DNA of 64,000 nucleotides from Cellulomonas aerilata (lineage in GTDB: Bacteria > Actinomycetota > Actinomycetes > Actinomycetales > Cellulomonadaceae): assembly GCF_007991755.1 (NCBI RefSeq), contig NZ_BJYY01000014.1, forward strand, positions 124,001 to 188,000. Direction: 5' to 3'. The notes under the pieces are model-generated. The model made no database searches. It had not been told where the DNA came from and saw only the letters and a list, made by a program, of their open reading frames with translations. Position numbers and translations under genes: made by a program. Of this stretch, positions 18,348 to 28,408 are shown one piece after another (position 1 is the stretch's first letter; each line of letters opens with the position of its first letter).

Positions 18348-21300
18348 GTGACCGTTCCCGCGCGCCCCTCAGGCACGGGACCCGACGTGGCCCCGCAGAC
18401 CCCCGAGACCGGCGCCCAGCCCGTCGTCGTGGAGCCGCCGTCCACGTCCGAGCTCGTCGAGTCCGCCGTGGCCACGTGGCGGGCCGCCCTCGTGGAGGCC
18501 GCCGGCGGCTCGACCCTCGCCGAGGTGGACCTCCTCGGCGACGGCCCGCTGGACCTGTCCGCCGCGCACCCGTCCGGGATCGCCCAGCTCTTCGCCGGGC
18601 GCGACACCCGGTTGTCCAACCTCGTCCGCGAGGGCGGGGCGCTGTCCGCTGCCAAGCGGCGCGCCCGGGCGGTCGGCTCCCGCGCGGACGAGTACGCGCA
18701 GCGCTACGGCATCGCCCCCACGTACCTGTCGATCGGGGTCGCGAGCTGGACCGAGCGGACCTCGCCCGACGTCGCCACCGACGACGTCGCCGCGCTCGCC
18801 GCCGTCACCCGCCCCCGGCCGCACGACGGCCCGGTCCACCCCGACGACGAGCCGCACGACGACGCCTGGGTGCCGCCGCAGGACGCGGTCGTCGACCGTG
18901 GCCCGCGCACGGTCCGCGCGCCGGTCCTGGTCCGGCCCGTGTCGCTGCGGGCCCGGGGCAGCGGCGAGAGCGACTACGAGCTCGCGCTGGAGCCGTCGCT
19001 AGAGGTCAATCCGGTGCTGGCCCGCGCGCTGCGCGCCCGCGGCGCGCTGCTCGACCCGGCCGCGCTCGCCCGAGGGGCGTTCACCGCCTCGGGCTTCGAC
19101 CCGCGCCCCGCCCTGGACCGGCTCGCCGCACTCGGGGCCGCGGTGCTCGAGGACTTCCGGCTCAGCGAGCGCCTCCTGGTCGGCACCTTCGTGCACCCCG
19201 GCCAGGTGCTCGTCGAGGACCTCGACCAGCAGTCCGCCACGCTCGACCACCACGAGGTCATCGCCGCCCTCGCCGGGGACGAGGCGGCGCGGTCCGCGGT
19301 GGCCCGGGACCTGCCCGACCCGGTCGCCGGCGACCGCCACCCGGACCACGAGCGTGGGGTCGGGGACCTGGACCCCGCGCAGCAGCACGTCCTCGACGTG
19401 CTCGCGCTCGGCGCCCACCTGTTCATCGACGCCCCGGCCGGCTGCGACGTGCGCGGGACGGTCGCCGCCGTCGTCGCCGACGCCGCCGCCAGCGGACGCA
19501 GCGTGCTGTACGTCCCCGGTCACCGGCGGGCCGCCGCGGCGCTGGGCGCCCGGATGAGCGAGCTCGGCGTGGACGACCTCCTGCTCGACGTCGCCCCGGA
19601 GCCAGGCTGGCGCGCCGCGGCGGCACGCCGGCTGCTCACGGCGATGACCCTGCAGGACGCGCCGGTCGACGGCGCGCACGTGGCGACCGTCCGGCGCGAG
19701 CTCGTCGACCACCGCGACCGGCTGCGCCGCTACGTCACGGCGCTGCACGAGGCGCGCCGGCCCTGGGACGTCTCGCCGTACGACGCGCTGCAGGCACTGG
19801 CGCGGCTCACGTCCGCCCGGCCCGCGCCGCAGACCACCGTGCGCCTGGCGTCGGAGGTGGTCGGGTCCCTGACCCGCCCTCGCGACCGCGAGCGCCACGC
19901 CGCCGACCTGGGCCGGGCCGCGCGGCTCGGCGCGTTCAGCCTCCGACCGGTCGACACCCCGTGGTTCGACGCCGACCTGACCACCGACGCGGCCGCGCAG
20001 GACACGATGGTGCGGATCGAGCGGCTGCTGAGCACCGGCCTGCCCGGTGTGGTGGAGCGCGCCCGCGACGTCGCCGTGTCCACCGGGCTCACACCCGCGA
20101 CCACGGTCGCCGGCTGGGGCGAGCAGCTGCGCATGCTGGCCGGGATCCGCGGTGCGCTGGACGTGTTCCAGCCGATGATCTTCGAGCGCTCCGCCGCCGA
20201 CCTGGTCGCCGCCACCGCGGGCCGCGCCTGGCGCGCCGAGCACGGCGTGACGATGAGCGGGGTGCACCGGCGCCGGCTGCGCAAGCAGGCCAAGGACATG
20301 GTCCGGCCCGGTCGCCCGGTGGCCGACCTGCACGCCGCCCTGGTCGACGTCCAGGAGCAGCGGGAGATCTGGCAGGCGCACTGCCCGGCCGGTGGCTGGC
20401 CCCGGCTGCCGGACGGTCTGGCCGACATCGAGGCCGAGTACGCGGTCGTGCAGGACGACGTCGAGCACGTCGCCCGGGTGCTGGCCAGCACCCCCGCCGG
20501 CGGCGCGCTGGCCGCGGTGTCGTTCGCCGACCTCGTCGAGCGGCTGCGGCGGCTGCTGGTCGACCGCCGCGCGCTGGAGACGCTGCCCGAGCGGACCGCG
20601 GCCCTGCGGGCGCTGCGCGGGGCGGGCCTGGACCCGCTGCTGCAGGACCTCGCGCACCGCCGGGTCGCGCCGGGCCTGGTCGGCGCCGAGCTGGAGCTGG
20701 CCTGGTGGAGCAGCGTGTTCGAGGAGCTGCTGCGCGGCGACCCCGCGCTCGCCGGCTACGACGGCGCCGCGCTGACCGGGCTCGCCGCCGAGTTCCGCCG
20801 GCTGGACCTCGAGCACGTGGCCAGCCTGTCCGGCCCCGTGCGCGCCAGTGTCGCGCGGCAGGTCGGCGACACCCTCCTCGGGCACCGCGAGCGGGCCCGT
20901 GCGCTGTTCGGCGAGCTCAACGAGGAGCGGCTGACCAGCCTGCGCGAGGTGACCGAGCGCTACCCCGACCTGGTCCGGCGGCTGCGGCCCGTGGTGACCG
21001 CCTCGCCGATGCTCGTGCCGCAGCTGCTCCCCGCGACCCGCACGGTGGACCTCGTCGTGCTCGACGCGGTCCAGCACCTGCCGCTGGAGCTGCTGCTGTC
21101 CGCGATCGCCCGCGGGCGCCAGGTCGTCGTCGTCGGCGACCCGCGGTGCGCGTCCGGGACGGCGGTGCGCGAGCTGGCCGAGGTGCTGCCCCGGGTGGCG
21201 CTGCGGGCCTCGGCGACCCGGCGCGACCCCTACCTCACCGCGTTCCTCGCCGACCACGGGTACGCGGGCGTGCTGGAGGCGACGCCGCTGCCGCACGCCG

Positions 21301-23171
21301 CACCGCTCGTGCACCTGGACGTGGTGCCCGGGTCCGGCATGCCCGACCCGGGCACCGGCGCGGTGGAGTCGACCCGCGAGGAGGTCGAGCACGTCGTCGA
21401 GCTGGTCATCACGCACGCGCTGACCCGGCCCGAGGAGTCGCTCGCCGTCATCACCCCGTCGTCCGTGCACGCCGCGCGGGTCCGCGAGGCCGTGCTCGGC
21501 GAAGTCCGCGACAACCCCGCGCTCGCCGCGTTCTTCGACGCCCGACGGGCCGAGCCGTTCGTCTCCACCGACCTGGCCGGTGTCGCCGGCCTGCGGCGGG
21601 AGGCGGTCATCCTGTCGCTCGGGTACGGCCGCACGCCGCACGGGCGGGTGCTGCACCGCTTCGGGCCGCTGAGCGGTCCGGGGGGCGAGGCCCTGCTGCT
21701 CGACGCCCTCGGCGCCATCCGCCACCGCCTGACGGTGGTCAGTTGCTTCGCCCTGGAGGACCTGGACCCCGAGCGGCTGCGCGGGCCCGGTGCGCGCCTG
21801 CTCGGCGACCTGCTCGGGTTCGCCGCCGAGCGCGGCCGCGCCCCGGAGGTGGAGGTGGCGCGCCGGCCGGCCGTGGCGGGGGAGCCCGGCACGCGTGACC
21901 GGCTCGTCACCGACCTCGCCGAGCGCCTGTGGCGTGCCGGGCTGGTCGTGCAGGTCGAGTACGGCGTCGCCGGCGGGGCGCGGATCCCGCTCGCGGTCGG
22001 GCACCCCGACCTGCCCGACGAGATGCTCGTCGCCGTCCTGACCGACGACGAGGCCTACGTCGCCGAGCCCAGCGTGCGCGTCCGGGACCGTCAGGTCCCC
22101 CAGCGCCTGGAGCGGCTCGGCTGGCGCGTGGTCCAGGTGTGGTCCGCCGCGGCGTTCCTCGACCCGCAGGCCGAGGCCGAGGCGATCGAGCGTGCCGTCC
22201 TGGCGTGCCTCGCCGAGCGGCCGACCGCGCCGCCGGAGCCGCTGCAGCTCGCCGACGACGTGGACGGGGACCTCGGTCACGCCGTGCCGGCGCCCGTGGT
22301 CGACGCTGCGGAGGCTGGGCCGGTGACCGAGCGCGTGCCGACGGCGACTGCGCCGGTGCGCACGGCGCAGGGCGCTCCGCCGGTGCCGCCGCAGTCCGAG
22401 ACCGAGCCGGAGTCAGCTGCGGGGTCGGTGCCCGTCCTCGGGTCGGAGCCCGTGTCGGAGTTGGCGGTCGCACCGGAGCCGGAGGTCGAGCCGGAACCGG
22501 AACCCGCTCTCGGGTCGGAGCCCGTCCCGCGGACGCTGCCCCGCCCGGCGCCGGTGCCGACGCCGGGCTCGACGCCGCTGCCGACGCCGGACCCGGTGCC
22601 GACGCCGCACCCACTACCGCCCACCGAGGCCCGGGTCGCGGCCCCGCCCGTCGACCTGCCTCCGATCGTGCTGCCTCCGGTGGAGCTCCCGCCGGCGGAG
22701 CCGACCGGACCGCGCCCGGACCAGGGGACCGGCGCACCGACCCGCGACGTGGAGCCGCCGTCCAGCGCGGACGCGACCGGCGACGTCCGACCGGCCCCGG
22801 CCGGTCGCGCGGACAGGCCTGAGCCGGACGTGTCGGAGCCGGCCGCGCCGGCGCCCGCGCCCGCGCGACCGTCGACCCGGCGCGGGCGTGCGGTGATGCC
22901 CTCCATCCGCGCGACACCGGCCCGGCCGTTCGTCGATCAGCCGAGGCTGCCCGTGCGGCCGCGGCCGCGTCCCGCCGTGCCCGCCGGCCTGCCGATCACC
23001 GCCTACGGGGACGACCAGCTCGACGAGGTGGCGACCTGGATCATGTCGGACGGCGTCCCCCGCGCCGAGGCGCAGCTCGACGCGGCCCTGCGGGCCGAGC
23101 TCGGCCTGACCCGGCGCGGTGTCCGGGTCGACGCGGCCGTGGCCGGCGCCGTGCGTCGGGCCCTGCGGTGA
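18348..23171 (+). CDS. Degenerate DUF4011-type SF1 helicase/REase-like protein
   Basis: 1607 residues. The N-terminus (about 60-310) has DUF4011 features: PLDLSAAHPSG, YLSIGVASW, VLVRPVSLRARG, and LEVNPVLARALR. A split SF1 helicase core follows (about 345-460 and 880-1150): RSVLYVPGHRRAAAALGARM, QVVVVGDPRC, and GYGRTPHGRVLHRFGPL are in register. However, the Walker A region (near 360) reads DAPAGCDVRGT with no Gly-Lys-Ser/Thr. The DEAxQ motif is LDAVQ, and motif VI TRAR is GAIR. A type II REase-like domain (about 1185-1270; GARIPLAV, ERLGWRVVQVWS) has also lost most acids. A Pro/Glu-rich linker (about 1300-1520) leads to a conserved C-terminal helical tail. GTG is preceded by TAGCGT at six bases, so it is probably leaderless. 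The frame is intact over 4.8 kb, so the scaffold is under selection although catalysis looks lost. Confidence 0.75.
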   Translation: MTVPARPSGTGPDVAPQTPETGAQPVVVEPPSTSELVESAVATWRAALVEAAGGSTLAEVDLLGDGPLDLSAAHPSGIAQLFAGRDTRLSNLVREGGALSAAKRRARAVGSRADEYAQRYGIAPTYLSIGVASWTERTSPDVATDDVAALAAVTRPRPHDGPVHPDDEPHDDAWVPPQDAVVDRGPRTVRAPVLVRPVSLRARGSGESDYELALEPSLEVNPVLARALRARGALLDPAALARGAFTASGFDPRPALDRLAALGAAVLEDFRLSERLLVGTFVHPGQVLVEDLDQQSATLDHHEVIAALAGDEAARSAVARDLPDPVAGDRHPDHERGVGDLDPAQQHVLDVLALGAHLFIDAPAGCDVRGTVAAVVADAAASGRSVLYVPGHRRAAAALGARMSELGVDDLLLDVAPEPGWRAAAARRLLTAMTLQDAPVDGAHVATVRRELVDHRDRLRRYVTALHEARRPWDVSPYDALQALARLTSARPAPQTTVRLASEVVGSLTRPRDRERHAADLGRAARLGAFSLRPVDTPWFDADLTTDAAAQDTMVRIERLLSTGLPGVVERARDVAVSTGLTPATTVAGWGEQLRMLAGIRGALDVFQPMIFERSAADLVAATAGRAWRAEHGVTMSGVHRRRLRKQAKDMVRPGRPVADLHAALVDVQEQREIWQAHCPAGGWPRLPDGLADIEAEYAVVQDDVEHVARVLASTPAGGALAAVSFADLVERLRRLLVDRRALETLPERTAALRALRGAGLDPLLQDLAHRRVAPGLVGAELELAWWSSVFEELLRGDPALAGYDGAALTGLAAEFRRLDLEHVASLSGPVRASVARQVGDTLLGHRERARALFGELNEERLTSLREVTERYPDLVRRLRPVVTASPMLVPQLLPATRTVDLVVLDAVQHLPLELLLSAIARGRQVVVVGDPRCASGTAVRELAEVLPRVALRASATRRDPYLTAFLADHGYAGVLEATPLPHAAPLVHLDVVPGSGMPDPGTGAVESTREEVEHVVELVITHALTRPEESLAVITPSSVHAARVREAVLGEVRDNPALAAFFDARRAEPFVSTDLAGVAGLRREAVILSLGYGRTPHGRVLHRFGPLSGPGGEALLLDALGAIRHRLTVVSCFALEDLDPERLRGPGARLLGDLLGFAAERGRAPEVEVARRPAVAGEPGTRDRLVTDLAERLWRAGLVVQVEYGVAGGARIPLAVGHPDLPDEMLVAVLTDDEAYVAEPSVRVRDRQVPQRLERLGWRVVQVWSAAAFLDPQAEAEAIERAVLACLAERPTAPPEPLQLADDVDGDLGHAVPAPVVDAAEAGPVTERVPTATAPVRTAQGAPPVPPQSETEPESAAGSVPVLGSEPVSELAVAPEPEVEPEPEPALGSEPVPRTLPRPAPVPTPGSTPLPTPDPVPTPHPLPPTEARVAAPPVDLPPIVLPPVELPPAEPTGPRPDQGTGAPTRDVEPPSSADATGDVRPAPAGRADRPEPDVSEPAAPAPAPARPSTRRGRAVMPSIRATPARPFVDQPRLPVRPRPRPAVPAGLPITAYGDDQLDEVATWIMSDGVPRAEAQLDAALRAELGLTRRGVRVDAAVAGAVRRALR

Positions 23172-23374
23172 CCGAGCCGGCCGCCCCGCCGCCCGGCCCG
23201 GGTGCCGCCCCGATCCGGCGACCCCGCCGCGCCGTCCGCCAGGGCGCGGGTGCCCCGGACCCGTCGGTCGACCTGCGCAGCGCCGACGACACCGACGTGG
23301 GGTGGCAGCCCGATGCGGCGGGCCTGGACAGCAACGACGAGCGACTGCGCCGGGACGTCCCCCCGCACTGGTGA
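23168..23374 (+). CDS. Small protein coupled to the helicase-like gene
   Basis: 68 residues. The GTG start overlaps the preceding stop (GTGA), implying translational coupling. The N-terminal half is Pro/Ala/Arg-rich. The C-terminal half is acidic and ordered-looking: VDLRSADDTDVGWQP, then SNDERLRRDVPPHW. I recall similar short tails downstream of related helicase-like genes in other Actinobacteria, so it may be a conserved partner; that is from memory and unverified. No domain is recognised. Confidence 0.6.
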   Translation: MTEPAAPPPGPGAAPIRRPRRAVRQGAGAPDPSVDLRSADDTDVGWQPDAAGLDSNDERLRRDVPPHW

Positions 23375-23583: not shown

Positions 23584-24093
23584 TCAGCCCGCGTGCCGGG
23601 GCGCGCGGTCGGACGCCGGGGTGGGCTCCTCGCCGCCGGCACCGCCAACACCGGCGGCGCTCCCGGCCCCACCGACCCGGGCAGTGGTGGTCGCCTGCTG
23701 GGTCAGCAGGTCGCGGATCTCCCGGAGCAGGACGACGTCCGCCGGCTCGAGCGGCGCGGCGGCAGCCGCCTCGGCCTCGTCGCGCTCGCGCAGCCGGGCC
23801 AGGGTGGTCAGCGGCATCTTGATGAAGAAGTAGACCGCCGCCGCGACCAGCAGGAACGTGATGAGGGCGTCGATCGCCAGGCCCGGCCGGAACGGCGTGC
23901 CGGCCACCTCGAAAGCGCCGACCTGGCTGAGGTCGTTGCGGCCGGCGACCAGGGCGACGAGCGGGTTGAGCAGCCCCTCGACCAGGCCGTTGACCAGGGC
24001 GGTGAACGCGGTGCCGATGACGACCGCGATCGCGAGCTCCACCACGTTGCCGCGCATGATGAAGTCCTTGAACCCGGTGAACAGGGACCGCAC
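23584..24093 (-). CDS. mscL: Large-conductance mechanosensitive channel MscL
   Basis: 169 residues. MscL forms a homopentameric inner-membrane pore that opens under membrane tension and protects from osmotic down-shock. The signature is clear: GFKDFIMRGNVVELAIAVVIG (S1 and TM1) and ALITFLLVAAAVYFFIKMP (TM2), then a charged C-terminal helix with LLREIRDLL. A 40-residue Gly/Ala-rich tail follows the helix. The GTG at 24093 is chosen for GAGGAGAG upstream. The SAF-domain gene lies just upstream on the same strand. Confidence 0.96.
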   Translation of the reverse strand: MRSLFTGFKDFIMRGNVVELAIAVVIGTAFTALVNGLVEGLLNPLVALVAGRNDLSQVGAFEVAGTPFRPGLAIDALITFLLVAAAVYFFIKMPLTTLARLRERDEAEAAAAAPLEPADVVLLREIRDLLTQQATTTARVGGAGSAAGVGGAGGEEPTPASDRAPRHAG

Positions 24094-24133
24094 GGGTGCT
24101 CTCCTCGCAGGTCGACGGCAGGACGACGGGCGA

Positions 24134-24982
24134 TCATTCCACGAGCACCGCACTGATCCCAGCCCACCCGGAGGCGCCTGCGAGGGCCGCCGCCTCCTCC
24201 GGCGCGACCGCGACCAGCGTCAGGGCACCGGCGACGTCGTCCTGCGGGGCCCCGCCCAGCAGACCGGACGACGGAGGCGACCGGTCGTCCTCCACGGCGG
24301 GGCGGGGCAGCACGACGGCACGCTCGGCGAGCCGCCGGCTGACCGGGTCGCCGGTGCCGGACGTCGTCGCGGCGACGAGATCGACCCGGTCGCCGGGCCG
24401 CAGCAGCGCGGCCACGCCCGGGTCCGCGAGCCGGACCGGGACCACCACCGTGCCCGGCGGTCCGGACCCGGCCAGCCGGTCGGCGCCGAGCAGCGAGTCG
24501 ACGATCGGCAGCCCGGACGGCACGGCCACCACGGGCGCGCGCCCCAGCACGGCGGCCACGTCGGGGTGCGCGCCGGCGACGGCCGTCGCGACCGGGACGG
24601 GCACCACCCGGACGTCGTCCGTCGTGAGCGCAGCGCCCGCCACGAGGTCCCGCGCCGCCGTGACCACGGGCACCGTCGGCGGGGACGGCGGGCGCAGCTG
24701 AGCGACGGCCAGTGCGGCGGCCGTCCCGAGGAGGAGGGCCGCCAGCGCGAACCGGGCGCGCCAGGCGAGCACCCGCCAGCGGTAGGGCGGGGAGCGGTGC
24801 GGCGGCCGGGGCCCCGCGCCCGAGGAGGACGAGCTCGCGCCGGACCCGCGCAGCGTGAGCGCGTGACCCGAGCCACCGCGGATCCGGGCCGGACGCGAGC
24901 CGCCCACCCGCACGCCGCCGTCGGGCGCAGGGAGCGAGGGCCACCGCGAGATCGGGACGTCGGGAGAGCCGGAGATGGTCAC
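24134..24982 (-). CDS. SAF-domain membrane protein (CpaB/RcpC-like)
   Basis: 282 residues. A basic Ser/Gly-rich N-terminus of about 75 residues leads to one membrane helix (FALAALLLGTAAALAVAQL) and then an exported SAF domain: VPVVTAARDLVAGAALTTDDV, GRAPVVAVPSGLPI, and VVPVRLADPGVAALLRPGDRVDLVAA. CpaB-type proteins assist Flp pilus assembly, but no pilus genes are present here, so the role is open. It is 40 nt upstream of mscL on the same strand. Confidence 0.78.
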   Translation of the reverse strand: MTISGSPDVPISRWPSLPAPDGGVRVGGSRPARIRGGSGHALTLRGSGASSSSSGAGPRPPHRSPPYRWRVLAWRARFALAALLLGTAAALAVAQLRPPSPPTVPVVTAARDLVAGAALTTDDVRVVPVPVATAVAGAHPDVAAVLGRAPVVAVPSGLPIVDSLLGADRLAGSGPPGTVVVPVRLADPGVAALLRPGDRVDLVAATTSGTGDPVSRRLAERAVVLPRPAVEDDRSPPSSGLLGGAPQDDVAGALTLVAVAPEEAAALAGASGWAGISAVLVE

Positions 24983-25125: not shown

Positions 25126-25488
25126 TCAGGAGCTCTTCGCCGCCGCAGGCGCCGAAGCGGACGACGAGGATCCCGACGACGAGGACCCGGACGACGGTGT
25201 GCTGCCGGAGCCGGAAGTGCCCGAGGAGCCCGACGCCCCGGACGAGCCGGCGCCCGACGTGCCCGCCGGTGCGGAGCCGCCCTCGCCGCCGGACGACGCG
25301 GCCACGCTGCCGGACCGCGAGTCGGTGCGGTAGAAGCCGGAGCCCTTGAAGACGACGCCGACGCTCGAGAACACCTTGCGAAGCTTGCCCGAGCACTCCG
25401 GGCACTGCGTCAGGGACGCGTCGGTGAAGGACTGCTGCACCTCGAACGTGTGTCCGCACGCGGTGCAGGCGTAGGGGTAGATGGGCAC
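25126..25488 (-). CDS. ruc: FmdB-type zinc-ribbon protein, Ruc-like redox-regulated chaperone
   Basis: 120 residues. The N-terminus is an FmdB zinc ribbon: PIYPYACTACGHTFEV and CPECSGKLRKVF supply two CxxC pairs, followed by VVFKGSGFYRTDSR. The last 65 residues are a disordered Ser/Gly/Ala-rich tail. This layout and its position beside the 5-formyl-THF cyclo-ligase gene match M. tuberculosis Rv0991c (Ruc), a chaperone activated when its cysteines are oxidised. A CIRCE operator upstream supports control by HrcA with the groEL regulon. GTG 25488 has AGAGGAGA in front. Confidence 0.85.
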   Translation of the reverse strand: MPIYPYACTACGHTFEVQQSFTDASLTQCPECSGKLRKVFSSVGVVFKGSGFYRTDSRSGSVAASSGGEGGSAPAGTSGAGSSGASGSSGTSGSGSTPSSGSSSSGSSSSASAPAAAKSS

Positions 25489-25517
25489 GCGGGTCTCCTC
25501 TGCCGACGCCAGCCGAG

Positions 25518-25549
25518 CTGGCACTCGCTTCATCCGAGTGCTAATGATA
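25518..25549 (-). promoter_or_regulatory. CIRCE (HrcA) operator with overlapping -10 box, upstream of ruc
   Basis: Read on the minus strand: TATCAT (-10, 25549-25544) runs into TTAGCACTC, nine bases, then GAGTGCCAG. The CIRCE consensus is TTAGCACTC-N9-GAGTGCTAA; only two positions in the second arm differ. The operator lies at the expected transcription start, about 30 nt before the ruc start codon, as in HrcA-repressed chaperone genes. Confidence 0.88.
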
Positions 25550-25678
25550 CCGGCCGCTCCGCCCGGTGCGCTCTGTGACGTGCCCGACGGCCCGCGGCCG
25601 TCCCGCCGCTCGTGCGTCGGAGCCCTCCCGCCGCTCGCGCGTCCGGGCCGTCGCGCCGCTGCGGCTACTCTCCCAGGC

Positions 25679-28408
25679 GTGACCCGCCGCCGAGCCACCC
25701 GACTCCTCGCTGTCGTCGCCGCCGTGCTGGTGCTGGTGCTCGCCGCGACCACCGTGGCGGCGGTGCTGGTCGTCCGCCGTCCGCTGCCCCAGACCACCGG
25801 CACGCTGGACGTGCCGGGGCTGGCTGACGAGGTGACGGTCGTGCGCGACGCCCGCGGCGTCCCGACGATCACCGCGCGGACCTCCGAGGACCTGTTCCGC
25901 GCCCAGGGGTTCGTGCACGCGCAGGACCGGTTCTTCGAGATGGACTACCGCCGGCACGTCACTGCGGGCCGCCTCTCCGAGCTCGTCGGGGCGAACCCGG
26001 ACGCCCTCGCGGCGGACCGGGTGATTCGCACCTTCGGCTGGCGCCGGGTCGCCGAGCAGGAGCTGCCGATCGTGGCCGAGTCCACCCGCGCCTACCTGCA
26101 GGCCTACGCCGACGGCGTCAACGCCTACCTCGAGTCCCGCGGCACGGAGTCGCTGGGCGTGGAGTACACGGTCCTCGGCACGCAGGTGTCGGTCCCCGAG
26201 CCCGCGCCCTGGGACCCGGTGGACTCCCTGGCGTGGCTCAAGGCGATGGCCTGGGACCTGCGCGGCAACTACGACGAGGAGCTCGCGCGCGCCACGACGT
26301 ACGCGTCCGTGCAGGACGTCGCCCGGGTCGCCGAGCTCTTCCCGGCGTACCCGCAGGCGGTCAACGTCCCCATCGTGGCCGCCGCCGACCTCACCTCCGC
26401 GCCCGCCGCCGCCCCGGTCACCGCAGCCGCGCAGGCTGCGGGTGCGCCGCCTGCCGCGCCGGCGGCCGCGCCCGCCACGCCGACGTCGGCCGCCGTCCCC
26501 GCCGGGACGACCGAGCCGACCGCGCCGAGCGAGCCGACCGAGCCCACCGAGCCGGGCGACCCGACCCTCGCACCCGAGCCGACCGGACCCGACCTCGCCT
26601 CGGCCGACCTCCAGCGCGCCCTCGCCTCGGCGACCGAGGCGCTGGCCGCCGTCCCGCACCTGGTCGGCGAGGGCGAGGGCATCGGGTCCAACTCCTGGGT
26701 GGTCTCCGGCGAGCACACGAGCACGGGGGCGCCGATGCTCGCCAACGACCCGCACCTGGGCATCTCCGCCCCGGGCATCTGGACCCAGGTGGGCCTGCGG
26801 TGCGCCGACGTCGGGACCGACTGCCCGTTCGACGTGAGCGGGTTCTCGTTCGCCGGCTTCCCCGGGGTGATCATCGGCCACAACGCGCAGCTCGCCTGGG
26901 GCATCACGAACATGGCCGCGGACGTCACGGACTTCTTCGTCGAGCGGACCGACGGCGACGAGTACGAGAAGGACGGCGCGCGCCTGCCGATGACGGTGCG
27001 CACCGAGACCATCCGGGTCAACGGCGGCGAGGACGTCGAGCTTACCGTCCGCTCCACCGAGCACGGCCCGATCGTCTCCGGGGTGCTCGTGGAGACCCTG
27101 TCCGCACGGGTCGGGCCCGGCGACCCGGACGCCTTCGCCGGCGACCACGAGCTCGCCCTCGCCTGGACCGCGCTGACCCCCGGCCGCACTGCGGACGCCG
27201 TCTTCGCGATCGACACGGCCACGGGCGCCGCCGACCTCGCCGCCGCGGCGACGCTGTTCGACGTCCCGGCGCAGAACATCGTGTTCGCCACCACCGACGG
27301 GCACATCGGTTACCAGGCGCCCGGCAAGATCCCGGTGCGCGCGGTCGTGCCCGGCGCGCCGGTCCCGTCGGACGGGTCCTGGCCGCGCCCGGGCTGGGAC
27401 AGCCGGTACGACTGGCAGGGCACCGTGGACCCGGCCCAGCTGCCCGCGGCCCTCGACCCGCCGGAGGGCTTCATCGTGGCGGCCAACCAGGCCGTCACGG
27501 CAGCCGGCGTCGGGCCGTTCCTCACCGGGGACTGGGACTACGGGTACCGGTCGCAGCGGATCCGGACCGTCCTGCAGGAGACGATCTCCGCGGGCGACGA
27601 CGTCGACGTGGACGCGATGAACGACCTGCAGCTCGACGAGCGCAGCCCCTACGCCGGGGTCCTGCTCGACGCCCTGGTGCAGGTGGACCTGGAGTCGTCG
27701 TTCGACGAGGCGGGTCAGGACCTGCTGCGTGACTGGGACGGCGTCGCCGCCGCGGACTCGGCCGGCGCGGCGTACTTCTCCGCCGTCTGGTCGACGCTGC
27801 TCCAGCTGATCTTCTGGGACGAGCTGCCGCAGTCCGTCCGGCCCACCGGCGGCGACCGGTGGCTGGAGGTCGTCTCAGGCCTGCTGCAGCGGCCCGACGA
27901 CGCCTGGTGGGACGACCGGACCACCGTCGGCCTGGTCGAGGGGCGCGACGAGATCCTGTCCCGCGCGCTGACGTCCGCCCGGCTGGAGCTCGCGGTCGAG
28001 ATGGGCAAGGAGGCCACGGGATGGGAGTGGGGCAAGGTGCACGTCCTGGCCCCGCAGCACCCGGTCCTGGGCGGCGACGGCGTCCCCGGGCCGGTGCGCC
28101 GGCTGGTCAACCCCGAGGGCGTCGGCGTGGGCGGCGGCTCGAGCGTCGTCAACGCGACGAGCTGGGACGCCGACACCGACTCCTACGCGGTCACCGCGGC
28201 GCCGTCGATGCGGATGGTCGTCGACCTCGGCGACCTGGACGCCTCCACCTGGGTCAACCTGACCGGCGTCAGCGGGCACCCGGGCAGCCCGCACTACGCG
28301 GACCAGCTGGGTCCGTGGGCGGCGGGGGAGACCTTCCCGTGGCCGTACACGGCCGAGGCCGTGGAGGCGGCCGCGGACGACCGGCTCACCCTGCGTCCGG
28401 GCTCCTGA
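25679..28408 (+). CDS. Penicillin acylase family (S45 Ntn-hydrolase) enzyme
   Basis: 909 residues. A signal anchor (LLAVVAAVLVLVLAATTVAAVLVV) puts it outside the cytoplasmic membrane. The alpha part contains VVRDARGVPTITA and AQGFVHAQDRFFEMD. Autocleavage would expose Ser337 in IGSNSWVVSGEHTSTG, the start of the beta chain, followed by ANDPHLG and FAGFPGVIIGHN. Members hydrolyse acyl-amide bonds, including penicillins and acyl-homoserine lactones; the substrate here is unknown. An Ala/Pro/Thr/Glu-rich insert (about 235-310) sits in the spacer ahead of the cleavage site. GTG 25679 has TACTCT seven bases upstream, so it is probably leaderless. Its end overlaps the convergent cyclo-ligase gene by 23 nt. 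Confidence 0.9.
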   Translation: MTRRRATRLLAVVAAVLVLVLAATTVAAVLVVRRPLPQTTGTLDVPGLADEVTVVRDARGVPTITARTSEDLFRAQGFVHAQDRFFEMDYRRHVTAGRLSELVGANPDALAADRVIRTFGWRRVAEQELPIVAESTRAYLQAYADGVNAYLESRGTESLGVEYTVLGTQVSVPEPAPWDPVDSLAWLKAMAWDLRGNYDEELARATTYASVQDVARVAELFPAYPQAVNVPIVAAADLTSAPAAAPVTAAAQAAGAPPAAPAAAPATPTSAAVPAGTTEPTAPSEPTEPTEPGDPTLAPEPTGPDLASADLQRALASATEALAAVPHLVGEGEGIGSNSWVVSGEHTSTGAPMLANDPHLGISAPGIWTQVGLRCADVGTDCPFDVSGFSFAGFPGVIIGHNAQLAWGITNMAADVTDFFVERTDGDEYEKDGARLPMTVRTETIRVNGGEDVELTVRSTEHGPIVSGVLVETLSARVGPGDPDAFAGDHELALAWTALTPGRTADAVFAIDTATGAADLAAAATLFDVPAQNIVFATTDGHIGYQAPGKIPVRAVVPGAPVPSDGSWPRPGWDSRYDWQGTVDPAQLPAALDPPEGFIVAANQAVTAAGVGPFLTGDWDYGYRSQRIRTVLQETISAGDDVDVDAMNDLQLDERSPYAGVLLDALVQVDLESSFDEAGQDLLRDWDGVAAADSAGAAYFSAVWSTLLQLIFWDELPQSVRPTGGDRWLEVVSGLLQRPDDAWWDDRTTVGLVEGRDEILSRALTSARLELAVEMGKEATGWEWGKVHVLAPQHPVLGGDGVPGPVRRLVNPEGVGVGGGSSVVNATSWDADTDSYAVTAAPSMRMVVDLGDLDASTWVNLTGVSGHPGSPHYADQLGPWAAGETFPWPYTAEAVEAAADDRLTLRPGS

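Follow-up and report, generated by a model that had tools for sequence, protein, structure and literature searches.

A putative pseudo-helicase-nuclease of the DUF4011/MTES_1575 family and a conserved small gene beside it in Cellulomonadaceae and related actinobacteria

Helicases that join a DUF4011 region to an MTES_1575-type nuclease form a known family, of which Hhe and ProA represent the anti-phage kind. MTES_1575 itself is described as a fusion of HEPN, transglutaminase, superfamily 1 (SF1) helicase and Vsr-type restriction endonuclease domains with two winged helix-turn-helix (wHTH) domains overlapping DUF3320 (PMC3710099), and in Pseudomonas aeruginosa a core DUF4011 gene adjoining a conserved small hypothetical gene is described at a defence hotspot (PMC10250203). 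Outside this family, the inactivated nuclease domain of RecC is described as a hoop guiding single-stranded DNA (PMC1185551), and PriA of Deinococcus radiodurans as a pseudohelicase that binds DNA without ATPase activity (PMC4504706). Here, we analyse a stretch of 64,000 nucleotides from Cellulomonas aerilata (hereafter the window; contig NZ_BJYY01000014.1, positions 124,001 to 188,000), in which a gene for a 1607-residue protein overlaps the start of a gene for a 68-residue protein. A preliminary description of this locus had taken the large protein for a retained pseudo-enzyme, derived from active DUF4011 helicases with MTES_1575-type nuclease ends, and had proposed the pair as an undescribed system. 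The loss of motifs throughout 82 orthologues, under purifying selection, supports the first point. Both the parent family and pseudohelicases as a kind are already known; this clade and its small putative partner appear to be new, in that we found no description of either in the open-licence PubMed Central literature.

The large frame is intact, lies on the forward strand at 18348-23171 and ends in a stop codon at 23169-23171; its length, its position and its GTGA overlap with the small frame are as first described. We divided it into the parts given below. The ratios of nonsynonymous to synonymous substitution rates (dN/dS) come from 17 disjoint close pairs of orthologues, with Nei-Gojobori (NG86) counts, Jukes-Cantor correction and no codon-usage model.

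18348..23171, + strand: putative pseudo-helicase-nuclease, intact frame; below the NCBIfam ProA and Hhe cut-offs, above the Pfam cut-off of MTES_1575; hhalign E 4.1e-78 against the active family
18450..19352, + strand: DUF4011-like N-terminal region, residues 35-335; hhalign alignment from residue 104 onward, Pfam DUF4011 sub-threshold; dN/dS 0.152
19353..19787, + strand: first part of the helicase core, residues 336-480; AlphaFold2 model and PDB matches; dN/dS 0.08
19428..19460, + strand: former Walker A, residues 361-371 (DAPAGCDVRGT), in the column of GPPGTGKS in active relatives
19788..20987, + strand: helical middle region separating the helicase parts, residues 481-880; AlphaFold2 secondary structure; dN/dS 0.11
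20988..21887, + strand: second helicase part, from the Walker B position through motif VI and beyond, residues 881-1180; alignment, AlphaFold2 and PDB matches; dN/dS 0.101
21060..21077, + strand: former Walker B (DEASQ), residues 905-910 (LDAVQH); orthologue alignment
21711..21722, + strand: former motif VI (TRAR), residues 1122-1125 (GAIR); orthologue alignment
21888..22232, + strand: presumably dead MTES_1575/Vsr-type nuclease domain, residues 1181-1295; dN/dS 0.041
21987..22049, + strand: former nuclease site, residues 1214-1234; near-fixed changes D to P1214, E to L1231, C to T1232 and G to D1234, with D1233 kept
22233..22967, + strand: proline-rich linker, residues 1296-1540; 27% proline, weakly constrained; dN/dS 0.388
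22968..23168, + strand: C-terminal domain, residues 1541-1607, probable counterpart of DUF3320 (wHTH); hhalign; dN/dS 0.111

The descent of the large protein can be read from profile comparisons. When 19 family members were aligned by hhalign with 8 active DUF4011/DUF3320 proteins, one of them annotated Hhe (L090; L numbers are our handles for loci), the match had a probability of 100 over 1226 columns and reached column 1511 of 1516, which is why the C-terminal domain probably corresponds to DUF3320. Pfam places MTES_1575 above its cut-off at residues 1189-1283 (49.2 vs 38.2 bits), and at E<=1 this domain is matched in all 19 members and DUF4011 in 12. The DUF4011-like block of the preliminary description stands by profile-profile alignment, on which the assignment depends because the Pfam model itself stays below its cut-off in the large protein (12.9 vs 22.2 bits). 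On these alignments, the collinear match and the MTES_1575 domain makeup (PMC3710099) make the protein a member by descent of the DUF4011-SF1 helicase-MTES_1575-DUF3320 family. Some 350 N-terminal residues of two aligned active relatives have no counterpart in it. AlphaFold2 gives its helicase region a confident UPF1/UvrD-like fold, and the PDB matches to the model include Upf1, Ighmbp2, Aquarius, UvrD and HelD.

Does such a protein still serve in defence? It matches NCBIfam ProA (NF058533; 317 bits, E 2.4e-94) and Hhe (NF042953; 145.6 bits), PADLOC Hhe (E 6.6e-33) and PADLOC PDC-S37 (313 bits, E 1.2e-93; a model that comes without a stated cut-off), and one might therefore propose an anti-phage protein of the Hhe/ProA type that works without catalysis of its own or with the active site of a partner. 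Yet the NCBIfam scores lie far under the curated cut-offs of 1500 bits for ProA and 2000 bits for Hhe, the key catalytic residues are lost, the gene keeps the same chromosomal neighbours across genera instead of sitting in a variable island, and no relative of the large protein was confirmed in one viral-contig scan. We consider a role in defence improbable.

The losses were followed through 82 orthologues, namely the window protein, one from Actinomyces oris and the best 80 of 166 relatives from one genome-contig scan. Each is one long matching frame, several of them ending at a contig edge, and one is unreadable at the nuclease, so that nuclease counts are out of 81. Active motifs were taken from seven of eight references; the eighth, from a Gemmatirosa plasmid (L087), is an active-family homologue apparently broken across frames, and was excluded from the counts. 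In the matching columns the active proteins read GPPGTGKS, DEASQ, [TS]RA[RKT], [IV]D[LI] and ECDG, and the window protein has DAPAGCDVRGT (361-371), LDAVQ (905-909) and GAIR (1122-1125), just as these motifs had been read before any relatives were aligned. The Walker A lysine is present in none of the 82 orthologues, and position 367, a glycine in active proteins, is an aspartate in all of them. The Walker B glutamate is likewise absent, replaced by alanine in 71 and by serine in 11; the motif III glutamine has gone from the family, and the first arginine of TRAR occurs in 0/82. In the nuclease, the aspartate of [IV]D[LI] and the glutamate of ECDG, whose invariance in active relatives suggests that they are the catalytic acids, are replaced in 81/81 readable orthologues by proline (1214) and leucine (1231), in keeping with the earlier remark that the nuclease acids are mostly gone. 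A classical Walker A pattern elsewhere in the protein turned up in a single orthologue (L021), distant from the Walker A column. An intact motif elsewhere would have spoken against a pseudo-enzyme, and orthologues with working motifs for local decay; the 82 orthologues offer neither a conserved second Walker A nor a member free of these losses.

Selection has acted on what remains. Over residues 35-1295 dN/dS is 0.11 and the dead nuclease is the most constrained part of the protein. A median of about 0.5 across 3216 pairs, distant ones included, was not relied on, since these genomes are GC-rich and their synonymous sites saturate. The region does carry many spurious overlapping frames, which might evoke a frame artefact or a locally decaying gene. 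Such an origin is hardly credible in view of 82 orthologous long frames, the low dN/dS in close pairs and the collinear homology; the orthologues contradict it. Shared by all of them and maintained under purifying selection, the motif losses are not local decay. The protein combines what marks a pseudohelicase: a predicted SF1 fold, key motif residues lost throughout the lineage, and purifying selection.

The columns invariant in the seven active proteins (residues 35-1295) give a similar picture: 56 are kept, 32 have switched to a different and nearly fixed residue, and at 55 the active residue is lost and the position varies; columns outside these classes were left uncounted. The switched sites would fit a protein with a new job rather than decay. 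Among them, H1041 and H1103 are fixed in 82/82, and R1100 is invariant in 19/19 members. One might suppose that the large protein is a protein-protein hub, in transcription, the cell envelope or division, that no longer contacts nucleic acid and in which only the outer surfaces of the fold matter. This seems rather unlikely to us, since the most constrained part is the dead nuclease and since these fixed residues, in regions that once held motifs, would fit a re-used binding groove. The former Walker A is itself conserved, D361, P363, D367 and G370 each being present in 82/82, and together with a Walker B aspartate kept in most orthologues this could point to an unusual site that binds or hydrolyses nucleotides, built on a fixed DAPxGxDxxG loop. 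But two fixed acids now occupy the former phosphate-binding loop, and the Walker B glutamate, the motif III glutamine and the first motif VI arginine are gone, which makes such a site very improbable.

The small gene is the second element of the locus.

23168..23374, + strand: small candidate partner frame, 68 residues, GTGA overlap with the stop of the large gene; homologues in 74 of 82 loci
23216..23245, + strand: basic block RRPRRAVRQG of the small protein; a loosely defined basic block is matched in 68 of 74 members
23330..23371, + strand: conserved C-terminal peptide SNDERLRRDVPPHW, from residue counts and dN/dS of the last 16 codons

Its product has no match in Pfam, NCBIfam or PADLOC. 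A profile seeded with 65 first finds retrieved homologues near the large gene in 74 of the 82 loci, and in the eight others the contig stops 0-317 bases past the large gene; the conservation of the small frame, raised in the preliminary description, thus holds beside the large gene wherever the contigs allow. The C-terminal consensus is about ND-x-RLxxDxPPHW: among 74 members the two prolines and the histidine are found in 73 each, followed by tryptophan in 65, tyrosine in 7 and phenylalanine in 1, and N, D and L are found in 62, 71 and 72. The PPH[WYF] peptide is terminal in 44 of the 73 proteins that carry it and followed by up to five residues in 29. It is also the constrained part, with a dN/dS of 0.10 for the last 16 codons and 0.28 for the last 60 (14 pairs). 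Because of the basic block and a grand average of hydropathy (GRAVY) of -0.99 in the window protein, the small protein looks probably disordered, with a fixed C-terminal peptide. The proposed coupling through GTGA survives in part: the overlap is real in the window, but a start-stop overlap occurs in only 10 of 67 same-strand downstream cases, and translational coupling is therefore no family rule. In six loci the small gene is inverted and convergent with the large one (L027, L028, L030, L045, L048, L056), a local inversion in which the pair stays together, and in L051 it lies upstream, between the SAF gene (below) and the large gene. These seven are among nine matches that lay outside the profile seed.

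We favour, as moderately probable, a catalytically dead descendant of the family that acts as an ATP-independent nucleic-acid scaffold on which a small disordered protein docks. ATPase and nuclease would have been lost in one ancestor, which is the parsimonious path, and the folds kept as surfaces; the gene of the dead protein would have settled at a fixed place on the chromosome of Cellulomonadaceae and their kin. Its helicase and nuclease folds may serve as binding surfaces without ATP, in the manner of RecC, and the small protein may dock through its C-terminal ND-x-RLxxDxPPHW on the large protein or on a common partner. DNA repair or genome maintenance would be a first guess for the pathway. 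The absence of both activities is deduced from residue losses, and nucleic-acid binding is suggested by analogy with the RecC hoop and D. radiodurans PriA. Several observations weigh against this scaffold. Walker B Asp906 is retained in 77/82 orthologues, G930 and D931 of motif III in 79/82 and 82/82, the last motif VI arginine (Arg1125) in 78/82 and nuclease Asp1233 in 81/81 readable ones, and these persisting residues may leave room for a residual metal or nucleotide site. The large protein is not basic, with net charges of -16, -2, +1, -6 and -5 over the folded parts, -15 in the linker and 0 at the C terminus, so that charge lends nucleic-acid binding no extra support. Finally, the linkage of the small gene could reflect a block shared with mscL and SAF, two possibilities that L051 does not separate. 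More tentatively, we put forward a wider proposal: the pair would be a housekeeping system in two parts, belonging to Cellulomonadaceae and related actinobacteria, in which a helicase-nuclease of anti-phage stock has shed both enzymatic activities to serve as a nucleic-acid clamp or hub that needs no ATP, and in which a dedicated disordered partner is recognised by its C-terminal PPHW.

The phylogeny agrees with a single clade. We built a tree on residues 881-1295 from 33 pseudo rows, out of the 82, and from 8 of the 9 active references. Among these 41 rows, one branch separates pseudo from active ones with a Shimodaira-Hasegawa-like approximate likelihood ratio test (SH-aLRT) value of 100. 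The window's nearest rows come from Cellulomonas fimi strain SB and Pengzhenrongella frigida. The A. oris protein, found in a plasmid-collection search with 329 matching records (43% identity over 78% of length), sits on a long branch (1.72), and where it belongs inside the tree is unsure. NCBI places the 80 genome loci in the families Cellulomonadaceae (40), Promicromonosporaceae (26), Sanguibacteraceae (2) and Jonesiaceae (2); one is labelled Streptosporangiaceae and nine have no family. The copies labelled Proteobacteria and Sphaerisporangium (L025, L050) closely resemble copies from Cellulomonas-type bacteria and Cellulosimicrobium, and their labels look misplaced.

The genes beyond the pair are also conserved.

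23584..24153, - strand: mscL, conserved neighbour outside the proposed pair; Pfam MscL E 3e-30; 67 of 81 loci
24134..24982, - strand: SAF/RcpC-CpaB-like gene, conserved neighbour; 69 of 81 loci
25126..25872, - strand: zinc-ribbon frame (Zn_ribbon_8), which we take to be FmdB-type, conserved neighbour with tentative start; 66 of 81 loci

We examined 81 loci, 68 of which have >2.5 kb downstream, and a penicillin amidase gene lies near the large gene in 58 of the 81. Of four upstream frames of the window, three had no match in these loci and the other, an ABC transporter, matched in 16/81. Of the two sides of the locus, the downstream one alone is fixed, given the high counts of mscL, SAF and zinc ribbon against upstream matches of 0 or 16. 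In A. oris, mscL was found by search and the SAF gene is annotated; its record (L001, NZ_CP116225.1) is named a plasmid, but mscL, 5-FCL and glp beside the large gene look chromosomal and it is perhaps a mislabelled piece of chromosome. The large protein is also a lysine desert, with 3 lysines among 1607 residues. In the family core the median is 0.39% against 1.26% in adjoining genes, with the core below its neighbours at 66 of 67 loci, and the product of the window's own SAF gene is likewise lysine-free (0/282). Lysine deserts are described as prevalent among bacteria with pupylation (PMC10665810).

If our reading is right, a giant helicase-nuclease shed both activities and was nevertheless kept, with its dead nuclease the most conserved part, which would make it possible to test cleanly what such folds do once catalysis is gone; the tiny co-conserved gene would be a concrete handle on the pathway. 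The A. oris copy is annotated 'DNA helicase', and such proteins can therefore pass as ordinary enzymes.

How does this locus compare with known systems? With the active DUF4011-SF1 helicase-MTES_1575-DUF3320 family, Hhe and ProA included (NF042953, NF058533; PADLOC PDC-S37 and Hhe), it shares collinear homology, an MTES_1575 domain above cut-off and the SF1 fold. It differs in having lost the Walker A lysine, the Walker B glutamate, the first motif VI arginine and two nuclease acids, and in its fixed chromosomal locus; the family of the small gene was not found at the active-family loci examined. With Upf1, Ighmbp2, Aquarius, UvrD and HelD the likeness is that of the helicase fold alone. RecC also holds a dead helicase fold, and like this clade it has kept an inactivated nuclease domain. 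Yet the clade joins a UPF1-like SF1 helicase to a nuclease of Vsr rather than RecB type, its putative partner is a 68-residue protein, and neither RecB nor RecD is among the 8 adjoining frames scanned. D. radiodurans PriA resembles it in that helicase motifs were lost throughout a lineage that retained the protein, whereas the present clade, known here from sequence, belongs to another helicase family and has had its nuclease domain altered as well.
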